Assembly (NCBI GenBank): GCA_017468395.1
Contig: JAFUIR010000005.1
Coordinates: forward strand, 62,001 to 126,000
Source of the DNA: Lachnospiraceae bacterium
GTDB taxonomy: Bacteria; Bacillota; Clostridia; Lachnospirales; Lachnospiraceae
Length of the DNA: 64,000 bases
Direction of reading: 5' to 3'
Shown here: one piece after another, positions 48,829 through 63,104 of the stretch
Numbering within the stretch: position 1 is the first letter of the stretch
Layout: every line of letters begins with the position of its first letter
Notes under the pieces: model-generated
What the model saw: only the letters and a program-made list of their open reading frames with translations
Databases searched by the model: none
Told to the model about the DNA's origin: nothing
Made by a program: the position numbers and the translations under genes

Positions 48829-49155
48829 TTATTTGCGATTGGTAATTGCTTTTAGTAAAAAGAATAAATGTTCAAATTCTTCTTTGCTAAGTTTCTGTAA
48901 TTCTTGGATAAATTCTTCCATTTCCGTTGGGTAAACTTTGGAATCATTAAAAAAGTCTTGTGGACTGATGTCTAAATATTCGCACATATAAAAAAAGGCA
49001 CTCATAGAGGGCAGAATTTTCTTGTTTTCAATAGAGTTAATATAACTTTCACATTGTCCTATGGATAAACTCATATTACGGGCAGAGATGCCTTTTTGTT
49101 CTCTTAGAGTGCTTAATCGTTTGTAAAATAATTCTTGAGACTTTTCGTATTGCAT
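48829..49155 (-). CDS. XRE-family helix-turn-helix regulator
   Basis: The ATG at 49155 follows GAGGTGG; a GTG three codons upstream is inside that site. The 108-residue protein has a HTH_3 domain at about 10-65 (LREQKGISARNMSLSIGQCESYINSIENKKILPS, seen as RNMSLSIGQCESYINSIE) and a C-terminal helical segment (EEFIQELQKLSKEEFEHLFF). Such small repressors are common on mobile elements. It is divergent from the gene at 49373, with a consensus promoter and direct repeats between them. Confidence 0.9.
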   Translation of the reverse strand: MQYEKSQELFYKRLSTLREQKGISARNMSLSIGQCESYINSIENKKILPSMSAFFYMCEYLDISPQDFFNDSKVYPTEMEEFIQELQKLSKEEFEHLFFLLKAITNRK

Positions 49156-49199
49156 ATACACCACCTCTTGAATAATTATAATCCATATAGTGTGCAGAA

Positions 49200-49372: not shown

Positions 49373-49948
49373 ATGAATAATGAGAGCATTGTGTTACAAT
49401 CTGCGGATTCGCTAAATGATGGAAAAACGGGAAGCAGTAAAATTTGTATTATTTCCGGTGTTTGTGGCTTGGTGTTAGGATTATTAATCTGTATTTGGGC
49501 AGGAAATTTTAACTTATATGCAATTCTTCTGTTGGGCATATTAGGTGGCTTAGGTGCACTAATCGGATGGGGAATAGGAAACAAGAAGTTGAGATATAAA
49601 AGTGCCATGTTGTCAAGGAAACGCTTTATGGTAGATGAAAAGCCGGAATATGCAGAATTGTATCAAAGATTGTTACCTACTTTTCAGTCATTAAACTTAA
49701 AAATGGAATTGAATGAAAAAGGTATACTTAGCGTTTTCCACAATGGTATCTATTATGATATTGTATTTAATGAAGATGATAGTTTTTCTATCCATTGGCA
49801 TCAGTCCTTCTTTAAGGAACTTTTGGAAAGGCGACTCAATATTTCAATATACAAGAAATTAGTTGCGTCCATGGGATTGATTGCTTATCATGTGCAAAAA
49901 GAATGTTTAAATGGTAATGAAATGTATTACACGCAGGAGGAAAAGTAA
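49373..49948 (+). CDS. Hypothetical membrane protein of the accessory island
   Basis: The 191-residue product has two adjacent hydrophobic segments at about 24-45 and 49-68, then a soluble domain of about 120 residues (FQSLNLKMELNEKGILSVFH, IHWHQSFFKELLERRLN). AGAGGAAAAGGTT precedes the ATG. No family is recognised. The last residues (MYYTQEE) look like the start of a recombinase catalytic domain in the same DNA, so the C-terminus may be shaped by a deletion that joined two genes. Confidence 0.7.
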   Translation: MNNESIVLQSADSLNDGKTGSSKICIISGVCGLVLGLLICIWAGNFNLYAILLLGILGGLGALIGWGIGNKKLRYKSAMLSRKRFMVDEKPEYAELYQRLLPTFQSLNLKMELNEKGILSVFHNGIYYDIVFNEDDSFSIHWHQSFFKELLERRLNISIYKKLVASMGLIAYHVQKECLNGNEMYYTQEEK

Positions 49949-50514
49949 AGGAATGGCATTATGAATTGATTGCATTTCTTCTTTGCACCGGAATGCGTAT
50001 AGGAGAAGCATCGGCACTTACATGGCAGGATATTGATTACAAAAATAATGTGATTCATGTTACAAAAACTGTCAGCAGAACAGATAAAGGGGAATATATG
50101 ATAGGTACACCCAAAAGCAGGACAAGTGTTAGGGATATACCTTTAAATGATGCCATAAAAAGCGTTTTGAATAGCCAAAAGGAAAAGCAGAAGAGGATGC
50201 ATTCAAATGTAGTAAATATGTCGCAAAATGTATTTGAGAATTTATTTGGCGGCATGGTTTATAATTCTTCTGTTAATAAGGCTATTACAGAAACTTTGAA
50301 ACGCTTAGAAGAAAAGGGACAATACATAGACCATTTTTCTGCTCATGCCCTTAGAGATACTTTTGCTACAAGATACATTGAGCAGGGTGGGAGTCCGCAA
50401 GTGTTGAAAACTATTTTAGGGCATAGTAGCCTTGCTATGACAATGGATTTGTATTCTCATGTATTGCCAAATACGAAACAGAAAGAGATGGATAATTTGA
50501 AGATAGTGTTATAG
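49921..50514 (+). pseudogene. Truncated tyrosine recombinase (integrase catalytic domain only)
   Basis: The frame opens after a stop at 49918 and encodes a catalytic domain with all active-site residues: Arg in TGMRIGEA, Lys in TPKSRTS, HALRDTF (H-x-x-R), LGHSS, and Tyr in MDLYSHV. The N-terminal arm-binding and core-binding domains are missing, and no ATG or ribosome site suits the fragment. It resembles integrases of Tn916-type elements and phages. I read it as a remnant of the element that brought the island. Confidence 0.8.
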
Positions 50515-50526
50515 TAAAAGAGAGGG

Positions 50527-50553
50527 TATGCCCTAGTTTACAGCTAGGGCATA
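50527..50553 (+). terminator. Hairpin after the recombinase fragment
   Basis: TATGCCCTAG and CTAGGGCATA form a perfect 10-bp stem with a 7-nt loop. The T run comes only after ATGACGAAA, so termination is uncertain. Confidence 0.45.
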
Positions 50554-50555
50554 AT

Positions 50556-50648
50556 GACGAAATTTTTTGATGAAAAGTAGTCGTTTTCAAATGTAAAAGA
50601 CGATATACTGTTGCAACAGTAGTAAATTACAGCTTTTTAAATTTCGTC
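50556..50648. other. Structured intergenic segment closed by a 10-bp inverted repeat
   Basis: GACGAAATTT (50556-50565) and AAATTTCGTC (50639-50648) enclose about 73 nt that hold a TCGTTTT/AAAAGACGA stem and the perfect palindrome TACTGTTGCAACAGTA (50606-50621). It makes up part of the 328-bp gap between 50514 and 50843; the rest shows no gene. Confidence 0.5.
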
Positions 50649-50842
50649 GTTTTTACAGGTTTACAAATGCGAACAAATGTTCTAATATGGTTTTACGGGG
50701 AGGAAATATAAATGATTTAAATGATTTGTGAGGAATGTAATAAAATGTCAAAATAGCAAAAATAGTGCTGTATTAGAGATAATATAGTTGATATTTGTTG
50801 CCCCTTGTAGTACGCTAAAAGAAAACGTAAAGGGGATATGCT

Positions 50843-51733
50843 ATGAAAAAGACAGTCTATTACTATGTTCTGAAACCTATCAATATTGATGACGAGAAAT
50901 ATGCTCAAGTAGAATCATTTGCAGATGATTTTAATAGTATCATCAGTAAATTATTCCTTGAAGAGAAAAATAGTAGAAAGGAAACACTAACGAAAGAAAA
51001 GAAAATTTTATATTTGTCAGATTATAAGTATGATGCGACTAATAGAATTGCATATATTAAAGTGACATCTGCTAAGTATGATGCTGTAAGAAACGTTGTA
51101 AATACTAATACTCTTGAAGATAAGACAGAATTGATAAAAGGTGTATCAGATGGGGAAGAAGAAAGTAACCATTTAGCAATAAAGTTTATAAGTGCTAAAA
51201 AAACAGTATGTTTATTTGAATCAAACTATTATGGAATAGGTTTTACGAAGATAATAAAATATTTTGAAAAGAAAATTAAAACGGCTCATAAAGAGAGTGA
51301 AGATGGCGTTTATTACAATATTAATTATCAAAATATTGTTTCTCATGATTTTTTGGCGGCATTGGAAAAAGTTAATAGAGTAAAAATGGTTACTTTAGAA
51401 GTAGACAGAAAAGCGTTGGGAGTTTCAGACCAAAAGGCATTTGCAGACCGCGCAGATTTATCTAGTACAGCAGATATTGTGTTTAAACCATGTGGAAAAG
51501 GTGCAACAATATTAACTGATACGGTAAAAGCATTTTTTAAAATGTATAATGAGGACGGCATGTCTGTAAGAAGTGTTTCAGTGGACGCAGATAGTGAGAA
51601 TAAAGAACCTATACAATTTAATACGGAGCAGATGAAGGAAAAAGTATCAAAAGAAGTTGAAGTAGATGCGAATGGAGAAGTTGATACTCAAAGTATGTTT
51701 GCCATTTTTGAGGAGTTGCTTGAACAAGTTTAA
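50843..51733 (+). CDS. RexA-like soluble protein of a two-gene putative phage-exclusion unit
   Basis: AAAGGGGATATGCT precedes the ATG. The 296-residue protein has no signal peptide or membrane helix. Its length and order of segments resemble phage lambda RexA as I remember it: an early FNSII helix, a YLSDYKYD..IAYIKVT strand pair, a repeated-turn region ending VSDGEEES, a strand IKFISAKKTVCLFES, and at 211-216 DIVFKP, where RexA has DIVIKP, followed by a VRSVSVDADSE segment like that of RexA. The next gene is a four-helix protein, as rexB follows rexA. This similarity was judged by eye only; KwaB-like proteins are an alternative. Confidence 0.5.
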   Translation: MKKTVYYYVLKPINIDDEKYAQVESFADDFNSIISKLFLEEKNSRKETLTKEKKILYLSDYKYDATNRIAYIKVTSAKYDAVRNVVNTNTLEDKTELIKGVSDGEEESNHLAIKFISAKKTVCLFESNYYGIGFTKIIKYFEKKIKTAHKESEDGVYYNINYQNIVSHDFLAALEKVNRVKMVTLEVDRKALGVSDQKAFADRADLSSTADIVFKPCGKGATILTDTVKAFFKMYNEDGMSVRSVSVDADSENKEPIQFNTEQMKEKVSKEVEVDANGEVDTQSMFAIFEELLEQV

Positions 51734-51748
51734 AAAGGAAGGATGTTC

Positions 51749-52294
51749 ATGAAAAAAAATTTGGGGGAAATTTGGGAGCCGATAGCAGACTTCTATTGCA
51801 TGAAAAAGGGTAAAAAAGGAGAAGTAAGGGTATTTATTTTGTTACCGATAATTGCCGGGAGCATATCGTATATAATTGGAAAAGTTGGCATTATAAATAC
51901 AACAACGGTATTATTAGATTTTTGCAATGATATTTTGAATCAATTACTTACGATATTGGCTTTGTTTATCAGTTTTTGTATGGCTTATTTGTCTATTCTA
52001 TTGACGAGTAGTAGTGAAAATGTAACAGAGTTAAAGAAAACACCATCGTCATATCATTTAAAAGGGAAAACTTGTAGTTTATATCAAGTGAATGCAAATG
52101 AGATAACGTATATTCTTTTGGCAGAAATACTTTTTCTTATTTTAATCTTTTTTCAGAAATTAGGATTACCGCTTATTTCCAATGAGTGGATAAAGGTCAT
52201 GTTATGTATTAATGTTGCAATATTTATGCATATTCTATTAGTTATGTTGGTGGTTGTAAAGAATATGTATTTCAGTTTTTGGAGAAATGTGTAG
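51749..52294 (+). CDS. RexB-like four-helix membrane protein
   Basis: The ATG at 51749 is 6 bp after AAGGAAGG, and 15 bp after the stop of the RexA-like gene. The 181-residue product has four hydrophobic segments at about 27-46, 64-90, 121-142 and 148-172. The last, IFMHILLVMLVVVKNMY, recalls the end of lambda RexB (FIH...L...YN), and the first, VFILLPIIAGSISYII, its start. RexB is thought to be an ion channel gated by RexA during infection. It is 37 residues longer than RexB. Function is inferred from pairing and pattern. Confidence 0.5.
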   Translation: MKKNLGEIWEPIADFYCMKKGKKGEVRVFILLPIIAGSISYIIGKVGIINTTTVLLDFCNDILNQLLTILALFISFCMAYLSILLTSSSENVTELKKTPSSYHLKGKTCSLYQVNANEITYILLAEILFLILIFFQKLGLPLISNEWIKVMLCINVAIFMHILLVMLVVVKNMYFSFWRNV

Positions 52295-52313
52295 GTGTAA
52301 TGAACAGTGAAAG

Positions 52314-52336
52314 GAGTCACTTCGGTGGCTCTTTTT
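52314..52336 (+). terminator. Terminator of the RexAB-like unit
   Basis: GAGTCAC TTCG GTGGCTC with one G-T pair, a UUCG tetraloop and TTTTT. From here to 52480 I see no gene; the stretch has two TGACCC motifs but no other structure. Confidence 0.85.
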
Positions 52337-52487
52337 CTGACCCCAATTTTGGCCCACGAATGACCCTAATCATCAAATAATCGTACGGAACAATGGTAGA
52401 ATTACACAAACACAGACGAAGCGGAACATGTACTCTATTTTCCAGCATTTATGCGGAAAAATGACACACAACAAACTGCCATGTACC

Positions 52488-52537
52488 TTGACGAATCTCT
52501 CGCCCTTGTACTATAATAAATACAATCCGTGTATACA
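52488..52537 (+). promoter_or_regulatory. ispE-gntR promoter with GntR-type half site
   Basis: TTGACG (52488-52493), 18 bp, TATAAT (52512-52517). TGTATACA (52530-52537), the palindromic core also present in the hydratase promoter, lies near the transcription start, so self-repression by the GntR protein is possible. Confidence 0.55.
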
Positions 52538-52608
52538 AAATACACAAAAGTACAATACTAGAATAAAAAGTGACTGCATATATTATTGTGCGGACAAAGT
52601 GAGGAAGC

Positions 52609-53502
52609 ATGAATCAGTTTACATTGAAAGCGTACGCAAAAATTAATCTGGGTTTGGACGTGGTCAGAAGACTGCCAAACGGCTATCACGAAGTGAAAAT
52701 GGTGATGCAGACCGTGGGCATTTACGATGAACTTAACTTTACCAAAAAAGACAGTGGCATTCTGGTTACGGTTGAGGCGGAAGGCCTGCCGGAGGGAACT
52801 GTGCCCGCAGATGAGAACAACCTGATTTATAAAGCGGCGAAACAACTGATGGATAAATATCATGTAACAGAAGGGATTCATATTCATCTGCGCAAAAATA
52901 TTCCTGTGGCAGCAGGCATGGCGGGAGGAAGCACCGATGCTGCAGCCACTTACCGGGGCGTGAACCGCATGTTTAATTTGGGAGCCACCGAGGAAGAAAT
53001 CTGCGAAATGGCAGTCAAGGTGGGGGCGGATGTTCCCTACTGCGTAAAAGGCGGTACGGCTCTTTCCGAGGGAATCGGAGAGGTGCTGACCATGCTGCCC
53101 GATGCGCCGGATTGTTATGTGCTGGTGGCAAAGCCGGACATCTTTGTTTCCACCAAATATGTCTATGAAAATTTGCATGCCGATACTTTGAAATCCCACC
53201 CTGATATTGATGGTATGGTGACGGCTATTAAAGAGGGAAATTTGGACGGCGTTATCTGCCGTATGGAAAATGTATTGGAAACCGTTACCGAGAAAGCTTA
53301 TCCTGTGATTGCAAAGATTAAGAACTTTATGGAGGAGCATGGAGCGGAAAAAGCCATGATGAGTGGCAGCGGTCCTACAGTGTTTGGAATCTATAAAGAC
53401 GCAGCAAAGGCCAAAGAAGGGTATGAAGCATTGCAGGCAGCAGGGCTGGCAAAACAGGTATTTTTAACAAATCTTATAAATCCAAAGAAGGAGGAAAACT
53501 AG
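52609..53502 (+). CDS. ispE: 4-diphosphocytidyl-2-C-methyl-D-erythritol kinase
   Basis: The 297-residue GHMP kinase of the MEP isoprenoid pathway begins LKAYAKINLGLDVV with the substrate Lys, has PNGYHEV, the ATP loop IPVAAGMAGGSTDAAAT, and the GHMP C-terminal motif MSGSGPTVFGIY. It phosphorylates CDP-methylerythritol in the cytoplasm. The GntR gene starts directly after its stop, so the two are co-transcribed. Confidence 0.97.
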   Translation: MNQFTLKAYAKINLGLDVVRRLPNGYHEVKMVMQTVGIYDELNFTKKDSGILVTVEAEGLPEGTVPADENNLIYKAAKQLMDKYHVTEGIHIHLRKNIPVAAGMAGGSTDAAATYRGVNRMFNLGATEEEICEMAVKVGADVPYCVKGGTALSEGIGEVLTMLPDAPDCYVLVAKPDIFVSTKYVYENLHADTLKSHPDIDGMVTAIKEGNLDGVICRMENVLETVTEKAYPVIAKIKNFMEEHGAEKAMMSGSGPTVFGIYKDAAKAKEGYEALQAAGLAKQVFLTNLINPKKEEN

Positions 53503-60830: not shown

Positions 60831-63104
60831 ATGCGGAAAATTAGGGAAATAAAGATGTGGAAGAAAAAGCCTTTTGTGGCAGCAACAGTTGTTTTAGGCC
60901 TTTTACTTCTTTTTCTGTTTATAAAATTAATAATGCCCTGTAAGGAATATCATTTTGAAGGCGGATATGCATTTGAGACAGGAGTGGCTACAAGTAATAC
61001 CGTGATTTATGATGGTATTTCTTTGACGCCCGGTGTGTACCGGATAGAGTTAGCTTACGAAACGGATACCGACCTGGGGGCGTACTGTAATGTGCAGGAC
61101 GGAACGGTTTATACCGGCGGGCTGCTTTGCAACGGGGAGCATATGTACAGTGCGCTGGAAAAAACGGAATATGAGATGTGGTTATATGAAAGCACAGAGA
61201 ATTTACAGGTTGTGCTAACTTTTGCCGGAAATGGGAATTTAACTACGGGCAATTTAAAGATTGTGGAAACCAATCAACTTTGGACCATGCTTTTGACTAT
61301 GGTGTTGTTTGGGGCAGCGGTTTTTTATAGCGTGCTTGCTTTTTATTATTATGACAAAGAGCATCCGGTTTCTAAGGAGAAAAAACAGGTGTTTTTCTTT
61401 CTGGCGGTTATCAGTTTTATAGCGTCCCTGCCGTATTTGTACGGATGCAGTTACACAGGAGCGGATTTGACCTACCATCTCCAGAGAATCGAGGGGGTAA
61501 AAGACGGACTTTTGTCCGGTCAGTTCCCTGTGCGTTTAGAGCCCAAATGGGTATACAACCATGGATATGCGGATGCCATTTTTTATTGTAATGCCCTTTT
61601 GTATTTCCCGGCTGTGCTACGCATATTGGGATTTACGGTAACGGCAAGTTACAATGTATATTGCATTTTCCTGACAATTGCTACAGTGTGGATTTCCTAT
61701 TATTCCTTCAGCAGAATTTTCAAAAATGATACTATCGGCGTGATATGCAGTGCATTATATACATTGTCTGTTTTCAGGATTTATAAGTTGGTAATTACCA
61801 CGGCAGTGGGAGAAGGCAGTGCAGTAACATTTATACCACTGGTAATTTACGGTTTGTACCGGGTGTTTTCCGAAGAACCGAAAGAACCTAAGTATAAAAC
61901 CGCATGGGTGCCTATTATGCTGGGATATGCGGGACTTATTCAAACCCATGTATTGACCTGTGAAATTACTGCTTTGGTTACGGTTATTATTTGTTTGATT
62001 TATATCAGAAAAATTTTCTGCAAAGATACCTTTTGGGAATTGGCAAAAGGAGCCATGGGTGCCCTTCTTCTCAGTATATGGTTTTTGATTCCTTTTTTGG
62101 ATTATTATGTGACGCAGGATGTGCACATCAAACATGTATCAGCCCGCACCATACAGTCCAGCGGTCTTACTTTGGCTCATCTGCTGTTTCATTTTTGGAA
62201 TAACGGAGCCCACACACCCGCTGACGGAAGCGGGGTATATCATTCCCATCCCGTGGGAATCGGCCTGGTGCTGATTATTGGTCTGGGACTGTTTTTGATT
62301 CTCTGGTTTAGCGGTGCCTTCCAAAAGATGGACGATGGTTTTGCGTCTTTTACAAAAAGGATAAGTTTGATTGGCATTATTTTACTGGTAATGAGTTTGA
62401 ATGTTTTCCCTTGGGACAAAATTCAGGATTTGCATCCGGTGGCGGCATCTTTGGTCAGCAGTTTGCAGTTTCCTAACCGTTTCCTTGGGTGGGGCAGTGT
62501 ATGCCTGATTTTAGTCTTCGGGTTTTGCCTGTGGTATTTTTGCTCCAAGGGTTCAAAGGCCTACTGGATTATGGTGGCGGTGGCACTTTTGGGAGTGACA
62601 TCGTCAGGTATGTACCTTCTGGATTATGTAAAAATGGGACAGGGCTATTATGAATTGTACAACGAAGAGAGCATGGGCTTTGGATATATTTCCGGCGGGG
62701 AGTATGTTATCGAGGGCACCGATGCGGATAAACTCAGTTTTGCCAAACCGGAAGTTTATGGCGATGTGGAATTACTTTCTTATGAAAAAGGATGTCTGCA
62801 GGCAACTCTTACTTGCGTCAATCCTTCCGGCGAGCAGGGATATGTAGATGTGCCCCTTCTTTTGTACAAAGGTTATGAAGCCTTTTGCCAAGAGACAGAA
62901 GAAGAAATAGAATTAACCTATGGGAAAAATAATGTGATCCGGGCACTTATCCCGGCAGGTTTTGAGGGCAGTTTGAAAATTGGTTTTGTAAGCCCCATCT
63001 ACTGGAGAATAGCCGAAATTATCAGTGCGCTGACGATAGCTATGCTGCTGGTAACCGGTTGGAAATATCGGAGGAAAAAAGATGTTAAGAAAGAAATGCA
63101 ATAG
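60831..63104 (+). CDS. Large polytopic membrane protein, YfhO/GT-C-like, first of a tandem pair
   Basis: The 757-residue product has one N-terminal helix, an extracytoplasmic beta-rich domain at about 40-145, then about ten helices, and a C-terminal outer domain ending in a last helix. GADLTYHLQRIEGVKDGLLSGQFPVR after the second helix has the acidic pair position of GT-C transferases and of YfhO-like proteins (only part shown: GADLTYHLQRIEG). AAGGT before the first ATG is weak; the ATG at 60855 with AGGGA is an alternative. It may transfer sugars from a lipid carrier to a surface polymer. Confidence 0.7.
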   Translation: MRKIREIKMWKKKPFVAATVVLGLLLLFLFIKLIMPCKEYHFEGGYAFETGVATSNTVIYDGISLTPGVYRIELAYETDTDLGAYCNVQDGTVYTGGLLCNGEHMYSALEKTEYEMWLYESTENLQVVLTFAGNGNLTTGNLKIVETNQLWTMLLTMVLFGAAVFYSVLAFYYYDKEHPVSKEKKQVFFFLAVISFIASLPYLYGCSYTGADLTYHLQRIEGVKDGLLSGQFPVRLEPKWVYNHGYADAIFYCNALLYFPAVLRILGFTVTASYNVYCIFLTIATVWISYYSFSRIFKNDTIGVICSALYTLSVFRIYKLVITTAVGEGSAVTFIPLVIYGLYRVFSEEPKEPKYKTAWVPIMLGYAGLIQTHVLTCEITALVTVIICLIYIRKIFCKDTFWELAKGAMGALLLSIWFLIPFLDYYVTQDVHIKHVSARTIQSSGLTLAHLLFHFWNNGAHTPADGSGVYHSHPVGIGLVLIIGLGLFLILWFSGAFQKMDDGFASFTKRISLIGIILLVMSLNVFPWDKIQDLHPVAASLVSSLQFPNRFLGWGSVCLILVFGFCLWYFCSKGSKAYWIMVAVALLGVTSSGMYLLDYVKMGQGYYELYNEESMGFGYISGGEYVIEGTDADKLSFAKPEVYGDVELLSYEKGCLQATLTCVNPSGEQGYVDVPLLLYKGYEAFCQETEEEIELTYGKNNVIRALIPAGFEGSLKIGFVSPIYWRIAEIISALTIAMLLVTGWKYRRKKDVKKEMQ

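Follow-up and report, generated by a model that had tools for sequence, protein, structure and literature searches.

The 64,000-nt stretch of Lachnospiraceae bacterium DNA analysed here (positions 62,001 to 126,000 of contig JAFUIR010000005.1, hereafter the window) carries two adjacent genes, designated A and B, in an AT-rich insertion that also contains an integrase fragment, a regulator gene and orf191. The features of this region are as follows:

48829..49164, minus strand: XRE-type HTH regulator in the insertion (HTH_3 at 1.4e-5, above its cut-off)
49373..49948, plus strand: orf191 in the same insertion, membrane-anchored (by eye), no Pfam family
49966..50514, plus strand: C-terminal part of a tyrosine integrase, N-terminus missing (Phage_integrase, E 1.9e-25, profile positions 27-169 of 172)
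50829..50836, plus strand: probable ribosome-binding site of A, AAAGGGGA, from the sequence
50843..51733, plus strand: gene A, predicted RexA-like soluble protein of 296 aa (ORF, phrog_4672, profile link to lambda-type RexA)
51473..51490, plus strand: DIVFKP motif of A, residues 211-216, aligned to RexA DIVIKP 187-192
51735..51742, plus strand: probable ribosome-binding site of B, AAGGAAGG, from the sequence
51749..52294, plus strand: gene B, predicted RexB-like four-helix membrane protein of 181 aa (ORF, phrog_4613, four transmembrane segments [TMs], RexB profile link)
52124..52126, plus strand: Glu126 codon in TM3 of B, aligned to RexB Glu94
52229..52231, plus strand: His161 codon in TM4 of B, aligned to RexB His128

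The ORFs of A and B are both intact, each with a good ribosome-binding sequence upstream. For B, the start at 51749 was favoured because its ribosome site is well placed, an in-frame ATG at 51743 being less likely. Four hydrophobic segments were found in the B protein and none in the A protein. The two-gene unit described in the initial annotation, i.e. a soluble protein of 296 aa followed after a 15-bp gap by a four-helix protein of 181 aa, was thus confirmed by the ORFs and TM prediction, and the motifs it had pointed out, DIVFKP in A and PII..SISYI in B, are both present in the sequence. A matched phrog_4672 (E 1.2e-19) and B, scanned from 51743, matched phrog_4613 (E 4.3e-11), both of them PHROG families without known function, and neither protein had a credible match in Pfam or NCBIfam.

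The AT-rich stretch is an insertion between a gene for a 217-aa protein (orf217) and ispE. Its GC content was 31–33% at 49–52 kb versus 39–47% in the 1-kb steps of 44–49 and 52–56 kb, with other low-GC steps present elsewhere in the window (down to 35% at 21–22 kb). These GC steps and the Pfam matches bear out the AT-rich island with a truncated integrase and an XRE regulator that had been noted at this position. By eye, orf191 (49373-49948) consists of a two-helix membrane anchor and a soluble part. A hairpin, TATGCCCTAG...CTAGGGCATA, terminator-like on the minus strand, is located at 50527-50553 between the integrase fragment and A. Promoter-like sites in 50400-52650 occurred at chance level (12 found versus 10.8 expected). 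For the congeneric comparison, ispE was matched in 58 relatives and loci were obtained for 29 of them, with flanks of about 1.5 kb from ispE; neither A nor B had a tblastn match in any of these 29 loci within that distance. Among the 11 relatives in which orf217 was visible, it lay 182–678 bp from ispE in 9, and in the other 2 the distance was about 1.1 kb; the corresponding distance in the window is 3.9 kb. None of the congeneric ispE loci examined carries the insertion, and A was found in only one of 61 genomes (the window's own and 60 relatives), namely the window's own. The window copy looks to be sitting in a decayed integrative element.

Relatives of A are rare in the collections searched. 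By tblastn, A matched 6 of 50,697 phage records and 1 of 72,556 plasmid records. Profile scans of viral contigs gave 16 loci with one profile and 2 more with another, while a single protein and one sub-profile gave nothing and two other scans returned only already-known loci or a second copy; genome contigs scanned with a single A protein and with a profile gave no match. In the genome samples, A was detected in 4 of 391 genomes of the class (one judged spurious), 4 of 299 of the phylum (one broken) and 3 of 392 of the order, each count including the window's genome. The alignment comprised 15 distinct loci with intact A. Left out were i) L006 (A cut by the contig end), ii) L035/L036 (a broken copy), iii) L027 and L101 (judged chance matches), iv) L015-L023, which are near-identical to L014 (one kept in A6), v) L100 (first part of B missing), and vi) L002, L003, L004, L024, L090 and L092 (duplicates of aligned rows).

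The 15 aligned loci come from phages, prophages and chromosomes, and in every one B adjoins A on the same strand and in the same order, the gap ranging from −17 to 22 bp with the start codons selected; this conservation confirms that the two-gene observation is real and beyond chance. Four TMs were predicted in 14/15 B proteins and none in 14/15 A proteins, the A protein of L014 having one. The distance matrices of A and B were correlated in a mirror-tree comparison (r = 0.918, 0/5000 permutations), for which linked inheritance alone would suffice. Searching the 391 class genomes with B gave 5 matches, 3 beside A, 1 truncated B and 1 judged spurious. A and B are a real two-gene family. Two degraded copies were also seen: in L100 (1426-3139), a B gene without its first part is overlapped by a HipA-like gene (by eye), the pair apparently having been partly replaced by another gene, and in one Bacillota genome (L035/L036) A is broken over two frames with B still readable.

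A survey of the neighbourhoods of the homologues placed the pairs in phages and prophages and beside type III restriction-modification (R-M), methylase-specificity and Septu genes. In phage copies the pair precedes the terminase small subunit gene with at most one ORF between (L003, L008, L009, L011 and L092; terminase by PHROG), and the same holds for phiCDKH02, whose A is identical to that of L014, by the phage's own annotation. In other phage copies (Jekyll and L091) it is located behind the endolysin gene. Two loci from genomes of different families (L094, 3828-9323; L095, 7667-13037) share the order type III methylase, type III restriction subunit, A and B. In L093, an N6 methylase gene (IIG-like by PADLOC) and a specificity subunit gene are followed by A and B, and in L096 (3512-9158) the order is A, B, a sugar transferase gene and then Septu PtuA and PtuB. 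The L096 pair is also next to ligA and a UvrD-type helicase gene (both by eye). No phage gene was recognized by eye among the listed neighbour ORFs of the chromosomal relatives, some of which were also run against Pfam and PADLOC.

The lambda RexA/RexB pair halts phage infection through membrane damage. By BLASTP, the window pair showed no similarity to the lambda Rex proteins (E 0.37 for A and RexA, 2.6 for B and RexB). The existing RexA/RexB models of PADLOC (PDLC02339/PDLC02340) and PHROG (12654/14878), which the lambda proteins do match, were without match at E <= 1 for the window pair and the pairs of L002-L005. When solved structures were searched with an HMM of the A profile, 8TWQ, the RexA structure with its split globular domain and dimerisation domain, was not found at E <= 10, nor was anything else. 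With the B profile, three sheath proteins appeared among the solved structures (E 0.5–1) and were taken as chance matches.

Comparison of profiles gave a different picture. In the first comparison (13 versus 4 rows), P was 0.04 for A-RexA and 0.001 for B-RexB. With 15 rows for A and 8 for lambda-type RexA, the P value was 0.0033 over 219 columns (hhalign probability 10%), and with 15 rows for B and 7 for RexB it was 0.0008 over 69 columns (hhalign probability 24%). Swapping query and target gave P 0.002 over 151 columns for A-RexA and P 0.0017 over 120 columns for B-RexB. Reversed targets gave P values of 0.45, 0.22, 0.17 and 0.044, versus 0.0033, 0.002, 0.0008 and 0.0017 for the real ones, and in each of the four directions 0/60 block shuffles attained the real score. 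In a search of 248 background ORFs with the A profile, the five sequences ranked next after the 15 family rows were four RexA and one actinophage RexA-family protein; in 406 ORFs searched with the B profile (background not hydrophobicity-matched), the three next after the 15 family rows were RexB; and the RexB profile, after its own 5 rows, had B proteins as its first four matches. Since the Rex rows are mutually related, these ranked Rex matches are not independent. The reverse search with the RexA profile is barely above background: its first family match (L011) spanned 18 columns and was out of register, the second (L089, 104 columns) scored 24.1 versus 23.7 for an unrelated ORF, and window A was outside the top 30.

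At the residue level, an acidic residue in TM3 aligned to RexB Glu94 was found in 12/15 B proteins (11 Glu, 1 Asp) and a His in TM4 aligned to RexB His128 in 13/15, both Glu94 and His128 being kept in 7/7 RexB proteins. The N-terminus and the TM2-TM3 loop of B carry positive charge like those of RexB, so both ends of B are probably cytoplasmic, as they are in RexB. In the strand corresponding to DIVFKP, the fifth position is occupied by K or R in 15/15 A proteins and the first is acidic in 10/15; according to the RexA crystal structure, the dimer interface contains hydrogen bonds made by D187 and K191 (PMC11077077). The RexA DNA-contact residues R219 and K221 (PMC11077077) align to D248 and D250 in window A, and basic residues at both positions are present in 2/15 A proteins (L025 and L034). 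Since DNA binding is reported not to be a strict requirement for lambda exclusion (PMC11077077), R219/K221 were not treated as defining RexAB, and their loss, which may mean that A contacts DNA or is triggered in another way, was not taken to exclude a RexA fold.

The likeness to RexA and RexB that had been drawn by eye in the initial annotation was therefore upheld in part. It gained from the profile comparison with its controls, the shared membrane residues and the public record of Roseburia phage Jekyll, in which the relative of A is annotated as 'RexA-like protein'; the link is weak, as the hhalign probabilities and the earlier P value for A indicate, and the RexA DNA-contact residues are not kept in window A. 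The alignments suggest that A is weakly related in sequence to RexA, and B to RexB, at the profile level.

It could be argued that A and B form an unrelated two-gene membrane abortive-infection system, with a soluble sensor and a 4-TM effector, which resembles RexAB by convergence. The BLASTP, PADLOC, Pfam and PDB sequence searches without a RexA/RexB link, the DNA-contact residues differing from those of RexA and the RexA profile placing the family just above background would all agree with such an origin. However, it is unlikely, since searches of hundreds of ORFs with the A, B or RexB profile put the counterpart ahead of every other outside family, and the real scores were not attained with shuffled or reversed targets. 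Judged by its architecture and distant profile relation, the pair is of the RexAB type and lies outside the existing RexA/RexB family models.

The window pair and lambda RexA/RexB have in common i) gene order and adjacency with a 15-bp gap, ii) a soluble protein with a 4-TM protein, iii) the dimer strand D/E-I-x-x-K-P, iv) the membrane Glu and His, and v) profile similarity, which extends across 219 columns in A and 69 to 122 in B. They differ in that i) similarity at the BLAST level is lacking, ii) the R219/K221 DNA contacts are replaced, iii) window B is 37 aa longer than lambda RexB, its cytoplasmic N-terminus and TM2-TM3 loop both being extended, iv) window-type pairs have no CI-type repressor neighbour in the lambda layout, and v) the present family occurs in Bacillota hosts, with some copies being chromosomal beside R-M genes. 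RexABpp of Pseudomonas putida prophage P1 (PP_5643/PP_5644), compared by its published description, likewise consists of a soluble DNA-binding protein with a modelled RexA-like fold and a 4-TM effector, but is proteobacterial, lies near a CI-like repressor and has a much stronger HHpred link to RexA (98% probability, with deeper alignments) (PMC12894663).

The same layout and topology are found in the actinophage pairs CarolAnn gp44/gp43, Sbash gp30/gp31, Toast gp42/gp41 (gp41 paired by position) and Butters gp30/gp31, of which those of Sbash and Butters lie behind lysis genes, like the phage Jekyll pair. These pairs differ in being actinobacterial and in having a soluble protein of 337–403 aa, versus 296 aa in the window. 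Their profiles showed no significant similarity to A or B (P 0.08–0.74): none of the subfamily profiles reached P < 0.05 with A or B, RexA versus Toast/Butters gave P 0.018 over 39 columns, and the merged profiles gave no signal to A, B or lambda Rex. Since the actinophage profiles are shallow (5 rows), this test shows merely that the A-B family is no further from lambda than accepted Rex-like pairs. The actinophage relative Sejanus was matched by the A profile (P 0.014 over 163 columns).

Among the PADLOC models, the candidate PDC-M53A had a partial HMM match to window A (residues 38-155, 50954-51307; E 4.5e-8), covering less than half of the protein, and did not match the A proteins of L002-L005. 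In 299 genomes of the phylum, PDC-M53A was detected in the window genome only, and the name PDC-M53 was not found in the literature search. PDC-M53A may itself be a RexA-like family. No PADLOC model matched B at E <= 1. PADLOC contains Kiwa models, and since no system besides PDC-M53A was matched at E <= 1 by A or B, Kiwa was rejected. A better match to another named system, for which Kiwa had been given as an example, was thus not seen, PADLOC giving only the partial match to the unnamed candidate.

We propose that A and B are probably a divergent abortive-infection module of the RexAB type belonging to Bacillota, a model drawn from the remote homology and from the behaviour published for RexABpp and the CarolAnn and Sbash pairs, which are reported to work by a soluble sensor switching a membrane effector (PMC12894663). 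A would be a soluble dimeric sensor, probably with the RexA fold, and the lysogen or host would produce it alongside B. B would be a four-helix inner-membrane protein with both ends cytoplasmic, silent until contacted by A. An infecting phage would trigger A via replication DNA or a phage protein, and A, once triggered, would contact B. B would then open or form a pore, depolarising the membrane. Depolarisation would stop the infection, with growth arrest or death of the cell, and would presumably protect against the phage.

Three other readings were weighed against this model, which are not fully mutually exclusive; convergence, discussed above, is one. In the pair of mycobacteriophage Butters (gp30/gp31), which has the same order of a soluble and a 4-TM protein, the roles are reported to be reversed (PMC7542560, PMC12894663), so that by analogy A would be a toxic antiviral effector that B holds inactive at the membrane until infection. 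Adjacent and co-diverging genes would be expected here too, but we regard this arrangement as quite improbable, since most B proteins keep the RexB membrane Glu and His, for which a mere tether has no obvious need, and A and B showed nil similarity to the Toast/Butters profiles (P 0.73 and 0.5). Least probable is a role outside defence, as a phage accessory for lysogeny-lysis or superinfection immunity of which the window copy would be a decaying remnant in an integrated element: many relatives are in phages or prophages, lambda RexA is reported also to bias the lysis-lysogeny switch (PMC11077077) and the window integrase is truncated, but some chromosomal relatives lie beside R-M and Septu genes with no phage gene seen by eye among the listed ORFs, and neither window gene is broken, each having a good ribosome site.

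The proposed RexAB-type module would fall outside the described range of such systems. Passages of the DefenseFinder 2022 survey place RexAB in Proteobacteria only, with limited model detection as one possible cause (PMC9090908), and a January 2026 paper counts just five RexAB-like systems described so far, none from Bacillota (PMC12894663). Our literature search, by titles and the openings of abstracts, found no paper on a Bacillota RexAB phage-defence pair. In some Firmicute papers the name RexAB stands for an AddAB-like nuclease, which is a different thing.

A Bacillota branch missed by current models would widen a system known for 70 years and would give diverse sequences for finding the trigger of RexA and the conducting residues of RexB. 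As a more tentative and rather speculative extension, RexAB might be no peculiarity of proteobacterial and actinobacterial phages; it could be a two-gene module of general occurrence for membrane depolarisation, of which a Bacillota branch has gone unrecognised. Bacteria might also have incorporated the pair into restriction operons on their chromosomes (Mod-Res-A-B), where it could serve as a suicide back-up when restriction fails; Mod-Res-A-B would then offer a natural cassette of R-M and abortive infection.
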